Assembly: GCA_017428055.1 (NCBI GenBank)
Contig: JAFRRN010000048.1
Coordinates: forward strand, 1-56,165
DNA: 56,165 nt
Direction of reading: 5' to 3'
From: Prevotella sp.
GTDB taxonomy: Bacteria > Bacteroidota > Bacteroidia > Bacteroidales > Bacteroidaceae
Both the position numbers and the translations under genes were made by a program. The notes under the pieces were generated by a model. The model was not told where the DNA came from. It ran no database searches and worked only from the letters and a program-made list of their open reading frames with translations. Every line of letters begins with the position of its first letter. Position 1 is the first letter of the stretch. Shown piece after piece: positions 49,005 through 49,746 of this stretch.

Positions 49005-49103
49005 CGCATCCTTCTCGACACGGAAATGGAAATCAATTCCTTTATTGCCGCATGGATTGCGGTGGGGCGCAGATTTGCCCTACAATTATACACACAAACC
49101 ATG

Positions 49104-49201
49104 AATTTTTAATTTTTGTTGCAATGTTGCCACACTTCATATAACTCTCTGAAAGTCAACAAATTGAGGTGTGGCATTGAGGTGGCATTGGTGGCAACAA
49201 A
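49104..49201 (+). repeat. Left arm of the 98-bp inverted repeat
   Basis: Pairs with the right arm at 49533-49630; I count 7 mismatches in 98. Its last third contains a repeated GTGGCATT(G) motif. Confidence 0.85.
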
Positions 49202-49256
49202 TGCTGATTTTAACGAAATATTAACACAAAATAGCCGCAAAGACGCAACGAAATAG

Positions 49257-49287
49257 TTGCAAGTTTGGATGTTTTTTCGTAACTTTG
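49257..49287 (+). promoter_or_regulatory. Promoter reading into the 22-bp repeat array
   Basis: TTG at 49257-49259, 20 bp, TAACTTTG at 49280-49287, ~50 bp before the first complete repeat unit. With the terminator at 49728-49746 it would give a ~450-nt RNA without an ORF. Confidence 0.55.
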
Positions 49288-49336
49288 ACACCAGAGTCAC
49301 CGTCTTTGATATAGCTAACACATTACCAGAATCGAT

Positions 49337-49468
49337 ACCAGTGCGTGGTAATACTATTACCAGTGCGTGGTAACACCATTACCAGCGTGTGGTAGCGTCA
49401 TTACCAATATATGGTAATCACATTACCAGCATGTGGCAAATGTACTACCACGCTGCGGTAGCGAATAC
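49337..49468. repeat. Six 22-bp tandem units with an internal dyad
   Basis: Units start at 49337, 49359, 49381, 49403, 49425 and 49447 (exact 22-bp period), with a shortened unit at 49325. Each holds ACCA-N5-TGGT or a variant, usually as TTACCA-N5-TGGTAA. The last unit has CTACC and GGTAG, a matched change on both arms. Not CRISPR: no spacers of independent sequence and no cas genes. Confidence 0.8.
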
Positions 49469-49532
49469 TTTGTGGCACTCAAATTACACATTTTTCGTCC
49501 TATAACGATACGGAAAAACTCAATTTTTTGAT

Positions 49533-49630
49533 TTTGTTGCCACCAATGCCACCTCAATGCCACACCTCAATTCATTGACTTTCAGAGAATTATATGAGGT
49601 GTGGCATTGTTGCAACAAAAATTAAAAATT
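49533..49630 (-). repeat. Right arm of the 98-bp inverted repeat
   Basis: Inverted copy of 49104-49201 at about 93% identity by my count. The arms enclose 331 bp. No target-site duplication was identified. Confidence 0.85.
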
Positions 49631-49727
49631 CGTTGTTGTGCGTCAATTTGGGTGATAATACTTGACCTCAATACAATAGTTTTAGCCTTATAACATCAGA
49701 TTATATTTCACTCAATACACTTCCAAG

Positions 49728-49746
49728 ATGCCTAATGGCATTTTTT
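49728..49746 (+). terminator. Short terminator-like hairpin
   Basis: ATGCC-TAAT-GGCAT (49728-49741) followed by TTTTT. The stem is only 5 bp, so termination would be weak to moderate. It would end transcription from 49.29 kb before the pyrG promoter. Confidence 0.45.

Follow-up and report, generated by a model that had tools for sequence, protein, structure and literature searches.

Phage-inducible chromosomal islands (PICIs) replicate from an origin directly 3' of the initiator gene, in which an AT-rich region is enclosed by two iteron sets (PMC6092414). Plasmid iterons, according to PMC4980987, are repeats of 17-22 bp, present in three to seven copies, whose cooperativity depends on helical phase. 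We have analyzed a locus with likenesses to both: a repeat feature at 49097-49637 of a 56,165-nt stretch (the window) that forms contig JAFRRN010000048.1 of the Prevotella sp. assembly GCA_017428055.1. Judged by sequence comparison with longer copies in the same genome, this feature is a non-autonomous copy that resembles a miniature inverted-repeat transposable element (MITE) and has undergone internal deletion: both genes, DUF6078 and VapE, have been removed, and the arms, the promoter and an array of dyads have been kept. We consider it fairly probable that the parent is a mobile element of ~2.9 kb in which DUF6078 acts on the array, VapE acts on the arms and the element spreads by way of replication.

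The first-pass annotation had described a possible novel element and proposed looking for further copies. A DNA search of the same genome gave 39 matches, and since the window's contig is one of 15 that carry related sequence, the feature is not a chance arrangement; the conserved dyads that were also to be looked for are found in related arrays. Two contigs (C95 and C87) carry the left arm, the promoter at the same place as in the window copy, a gene of 145 aa, the same array and a second gene cut short by the contig end, and on a third (C3) the end of the second gene passes directly into the right arm. A domain search identified the two genes as DUF6078 (PF19555) and a VapE with a BT4734-like N-domain and DUF3874. 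The ORF of locus L012 matches DUF6078 with an E-value of 1.6e-41 (142.5 bits against a cut-off of 27, model positions 1-145 of 145), and the domains of a VapE / BT4734-type primase-helicase (VapE-like, BT4734-like_N and DUF3874) are all present. From the overlap at the contig ends we therefore infer, out of two halves, a full element of ~2.9 kb consisting of an arm (~105 bp), promoter, DUF6078, dyad array, VapE and inverted arm. Both arms and the array are retained in the window copy (C35) and in C62, C94 and C21, all four of which are, like MITEs, short, non-coding, multicopy and bounded by terminal inverted repeats (TIRs); stubs of DUF6078, a few of its last or first codons, survive in C21 and C56. 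Since longer copies have the genes and others have stubs, the window feature is a deletion derivative. In DNA comparisons the element hardly reaches beyond its own genome: 4 of 59 other genomes match, and then solely through short fragments, with arrays in two of the four.

Two observations concern the surroundings of these copies. On C97 (L010, 6775-7225) a left-truncated copy is followed by a direct repeat of ~40 bp of the 3' end of an upstream gene, as if this end had been duplicated by the insertion; the gene looks PIN-like by eye. A separate dispersed repeat of ~230 bp with an GGGGCAGATCAGCGTATCTGCCC-like core occurs on C10, C102 and C77 (L016, L020 and L018), on the first two of them ~30 bp outside the element, and a flank search with it gave 34 matches in the genome.

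Relatives were searched for by protein in 150 Prevotella genomes, including that of the window. DUF6078 is present in 88 of these genomes and VapE in 102 (E<=1e-20); tandem TACC-N7-GGTA units occur in 24, and a reversed control pattern in 3. The VapE stretches examined were the 20 from the top of the match list together with L155, L230 and L231. Inverted repeats lie just outside 16 of the 19 side-by-side DUF6078-VapE pairs (E<1e-4), and none were found outside the other three (L222, L227 and L230). In a controlled test, 15 of 16 DUF6078-VapE modules were bracketed by inverted repeats, compared with 6 of 491 shifted windows, which may themselves partly be other real elements. These counts support the view that a TIR-bracketed module recurs in these genomes and that the window feature belongs to its many copies and relatives. 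Arms also flank three of the four VapE genes tested that lack a DUF6078 neighbour, but not the fourth (L216); within 1.5 kb downstream of DUF6078, a reach too short to span VapE, arms were detected in 2 of 77 cases, one of them weak. Since the arms also frame VapE alone and are seldom found over that distance downstream of DUF6078, they seem to be tied to VapE. The 15 other elements measure 2448-3257 bp and are filled by DUF6078, VapE (~605-710 aa in most relatives), arms and array, leaving no room for a transposase. No integrase gene was found between the arms of these 15 elements, where the two genes fill the space (genes outside the arms were not screened), and no consistent target-site duplication at 19 elements, the exact ends of which are uncertain. 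At another locus (L138, on G025:C1) DUF6078 and an array lie inside inverted repeats of ~230 bp (65%) with no space for VapE, possibly a one-gene variant.

The pairing of DUF6078 with an array of its own is well supported. We analyzed 77 DUF6078 gene records (one gene twice, as L081 and L113), made up of the best-scoring matches and the own-genome loci, and the counts hold for the better-scoring members. A strict test for a palindromic consensus placed a 22-bp array downstream of 30 of the 74 distinct genes; other pitches (18-21 and 23-25 bp) gave 0-2, two shuffled sets gave 0 and upstream regions gave 6 of 72. Loop lengths of 4 and 6 gave 1 each, and the counts for 3 and 7 are high (28 and 31) because they register the same palindromes shifted by one. 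A sequence-free test for an 11-bp lattice found 58 of 77 regions to exceed all 462 shuffles (49 downstream, 10 upstream), with 0-3 regions at the other pitches from 8 to 14, and no lattice in any of 109 control regions, each 3' of another ORF of >=180 codons, from the loci fetched. These 77 regions comprise 74 from Prevotella and three added ones (B. finegoldii, P. distasonis and a fecal scaffold), all three passing; the first two added arrays had been seen by eye beforehand, and a stricter count is 55 of 74. Nine genes were assigned an upstream array.

The half-sites, which include TTACCA, GTACCA, GTTTCA, ATTCCC, GTCCCA, GTCCAA, TTTTCT, GTACGT and GTTCGC, differ from gene to gene and covary with the predicted recognition segment of DUF6078. 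All seven DUF6078 genes of the window's genome pass the lattice test, and six of them could be given a half-site type (TTACCA, GTACCA, TTTTCT, GTCCAA or GTTTAC). By association and covariation, the prediction that DUF6078 is a DNA-binding protein recognising these half-sites is well supported. Beyond the genus, a search of 197 other genomes of the order detected PF19555 in 5, and of their 9 genes 6 have a lattice. On the spirochaete plasmid pTS1 of Treponema saccharophilum (L232) DUF6078 is accompanied by GTTTCA half-sites at a 22-bp pitch in a weaker lattice, which suggests transfer between phyla. Another locus, L229 (NZ_OY725951), is labelled a Bacteroides finegoldii plasmid; it has alaS and GH92 genes and may be a chromosomal contig.

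Arrays also occur alone. The 18 solo arrays examined stand, in any orientation, beside varied genes (by eye mutS-like, ruvB-like and others). Inverted repeats were found around none of the 18, and five more fetched loci hold variant arrays missed by the scan; solo arrays may be regulatory sites or relics. One genome (G012, 99% complete) has TTACCA arrays at seven loci (L024, L028 and L164-L168) and no match to DUF6078, so that these arrays may have outlived their protein or may be read by another one.

Read by eye, each arm has a motif of 8-9 bp that is repeated in tandem and, beyond an AT-rich spacer, returns in inverted orientation; the motif itself varies between elements. The right arm stands 3' of VapE and has two motif sets separated by an AT-rich spacer of 27 nt (78% AT), similar in position and layout to a PICI origin. 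Among solved structures the VapE profile (A5) matches, at E<=0.01, only 7pds (titled 'Similar to D. nodosus vapE'), which we take to be the Rep protein of a Staphylococcus aureus pathogenicity island (SaPI). By analogy, the arms would be origin-like and VapE a relative of the SaPI-type helicase that acts on them. A separate observation is that motif I of the archaeo-eukaryotic primases, defined as hhhDhD/E in PMC5862659, looks degenerate in the TIR-bracketed VapE clade (alignment A5): placed by eye, it has T, S, K or V instead of the first Asp in all 18 sequences long enough to reach it. The N-domain may no longer prime.

The mechanism that we propose for binding, replication and mobility is an inference from the sequence. 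DUF6078 would read the array from one face of the DNA, at one half-site for each helical turn, by means of a zinc-type Cys4 part and a putative C-terminal helix-turn-helix, possibly of the lambda-repressor/XRE type. TAnnTTTG motifs precede DUF6078 in 11 of the 16 modules, and a single module has one in the gap from DUF6078 to VapE, the amounts of sequence compared being similar (3360 and 3161 bases); the array therefore seems to lie inside one transcription unit. The left promoter would drive DUF6078 and, through the array, VapE, and DUF6078 would block or limit read-through into VapE by filling the lattice; where the array is upstream of DUF6078, it would act as an operator. VapE would bind the arms, with their PICI-origin layout, and start replication there. 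The resulting copies would be the route of spread for the element and its deleted forms, with no need for a transposase. A wider picture, which we put forward tentatively as quite possible, is that of an initiator-only mobile element (TIR-VapE-TIR, with two inverted PICI-like origins) that has recruited DUF6078 and coevolved operator lattices as its control, the lattices existing in many codes and also solo across Prevotella genomes.

The array itself might instead be the replication origin, with DUF6078 as an initiator that loads the VapE helicase on iteron-like repeats and the arms serving for integration only. Its repeat size, copy number and helical phasing resemble those of plasmid iterons as described in PMC4980987, and it is flanked by DUF6078 and the helicase gene. 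The iterons of plasmids are directly repeated, however, and here the half-sites alternate. Moreover, no VapE was found within 1.5 kb for 58 of 77 DUF6078 records, solo arrays stand beside varied other genes, one group has its array upstream of the gene and VapE-only elements have arms without DUF6078. We regard this origin as unlikely, although the most probable of the alternatives considered.

An ordinary MITE, the ends of which are recognised by a conventional transposase encoded elsewhere while DUF6078, array and VapE are passengers, is a weaker candidate and rather improbable. In many genomes such arms enclose members of the same VapE family, in some cases VapE alone; the modules lack space for a transposase, and no target-site duplication was found at the elements compared. 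Short copies with long inverted repeats are nevertheless MITE-like, and deletion derivatives are abundant. Where a parent coding for a transposase and sharing the ends might be expected, the longer copies code for DUF6078 and VapE; no dedicated search for insertion sequences (IS) was made, IS with matching ends having been screened for only through the own-genome DNA search, which leaves us slightly less confident of spread by replication from the arms.

The first-pass annotation had offered two readings, one of which was an RNA of ~450 nt whose six small hairpins could bind a repeated protein; started at the promoter upstream of the array, such a transcript would by our estimate measure ~350 nt. 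The fold of the feature is very stable (z-score -21), but this is mainly due to the long inverted arms, and no family reached the cut-off in an Rfam search of the feature. G.T would keep a pair in an RNA hairpin and A.C would break it, so that A.C should be the rarer of the two. On the gene-sense strand of 30 arrays there are 692 Watson-Crick pairs, 38 G.T, 43 A.C and 73 others, and because A.C is as common as G.T the array is taken as a DNA feature. The spacing is also exactly 11/22 bp though the spacer is variable, and some genes have the array upstream. The evidence favours DNA sites, and the RNA now seems very improbable; the other reading, protein sites in a MITE-like element, gains support and is extended by the parent element and by DUF6078 as the likely binder. 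Least probable of all is a system in which DUF6078 is a transposase mobilising the arrays, as RAYT proteins, transposases with HUH and Tyr, do repetitive extragenic palindromes (REPs): the gene adjoins its own arrays and solo arrays are dispersed over the genome, but no His stands in the invariant or nearly invariant columns of 71 DUF6078 sequences, hence no HUH motif, and arrays of 3-9 phased units are unlike REPs.

The layout of the window copy, for which we prefer DUF6078 acting on the array and VapE on the arms, is presented in Table 1. The arms first delimited at 49104-49201 and 49533-49630 differ, as originally counted, at exactly 7 of 98 positions, and the pair extends further. The left arm is an imperfect hairpin in itself, its motif sets facing each other across the spacer. 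The promoter noted between the arms was found there again, between left arm and array (TTGC at 49257-49260 and TAACTTTG at 49280-49287, 19 nt apart); by its consensus it is of the Bacteroidetes type. Counting bore out the six units of exactly 22 bp (starting at 49335, 49357, 49379, 49401, 49423 and 49445), the CTACC/GGTAG of the sixth and the variable N5; the core of the leading half-site, TTACCA, occupies 49323-49328. The spacing of two helical turns holds for these units, but the underlying period is a single turn: in steps of 11 bp the array reads TACCAGTGCGT / GGTAATACTAT / TACCAGTGCGT and so on, with one 6-bp half-site in each. Since the half-sites alternate on the two strands every 11 bp, both kinds of N5 are dyad centres. 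Of the weak terminator proposed at 49728-49746, the hairpin and T run are visible, but a terminator scan reported two other sites instead; it lies outside the element, ahead of a CTP synthase ORF.

Table 1. Parts of the repeat feature and their positions in the window
Feature	Position	Strand	Remarks
Left terminal inverted repeat	49097..49201	+	105 bp; similarity to right arm peters out at ~49083
Left arm internals			Two tandem 8-bp motifs (TTGCAATG, TTGCCACA), ~30-bp spacer, then inverted motif copies (GTGGCATTGAG, GTGGCATTGGT, GGCAACA)
Promoter, Bacteroidetes-type, TTGC-N19-TAACTTTG	49257..49287	+	Precedes the DUF6078 gene in longer copies
First internal deletion (approximate place)	49297..49322	+	C95/C87 have the 145-aa DUF6078 gene here; by-eye comparison with L012/L013
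Degenerate leading half-site TTACCAGAATCG	49323..49334	+	Retained in several copies
Array of six 22-bp dyads, (N/T)TACCA-N5-TGGTAA-N5	49335..49466	.	Putative DUF6078 binding lattice; comparable arrays adjoin DUF6078 genes
Second internal deletion (approximate place)	49467..49484	+	Longer copies have the VapE gene here; C95/C87 run from array into VapE start
Segment like the VapE stop-to-right arm stretch of C3	49485..49532	+	Similar in deleted copies C62, C94, C21 and C97; by eye
Right terminal inverted repeat	49533..49637	-	105 bp, 91% to left one

Among the papers searched, none mentions DUF6078, BF3469 or DUF3874 and two mention BT4734. The element family of rumen Prevotella seems to be previously undescribed and to spread without a transposase. 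DUF6078 gains a testable function, sequence-specific DNA binding, and the predicted protein-operator pairs, with at least five half-site types in one genome, should be useful for studying the evolution of binding specificity. The BT4734/VapE genes of the 102 genomes may partly be cores of an undescribed small mobile element without a transposase of its own, which would link replication-origin hairpins with transposon-like ends.

Among known systems, PINSR, a 188-bp repeat of Prevotella intermedia, is likewise highly amplified in a Prevotella and judged non-coding; according to PMC4755523 it differs in length and has no terminal inverted repeats. The BrickBuilt MITE of Porphyromonas gingivalis is short and multicopy, with terminal inverted repeats, internal tandem repeats and a promoter inside, but according to PMC4596501 its repeats are 23-nt direct ones and its ends of ~12 nt are like those of IS5-family elements, whereas the present element has hairpin-like arms of 105 bp and alternating 22-bp dyads, and its longer copies code for DUF6078 and VapE. 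Iteron plasmids (R6K, RK2, P1) share the few repeats of up to 22 bp and a binder gene on the same element; they differ in that the half-sites here are inverted alternately and the DUF6078-array pair also occurs without a replication gene nearby. The replication module of SaPIs and PICIs likewise has a VapE-type helicase, and the right arm has the position of the PICI origin of PMC6092414 and a similar layout. Unlike those islands, the element has two genes only, so that its arms enclose neither an integrase gene nor any for excision or packaging, and within its ~2.9 kb it carries putative origin-like sequence at both ends, in inverted orientation.
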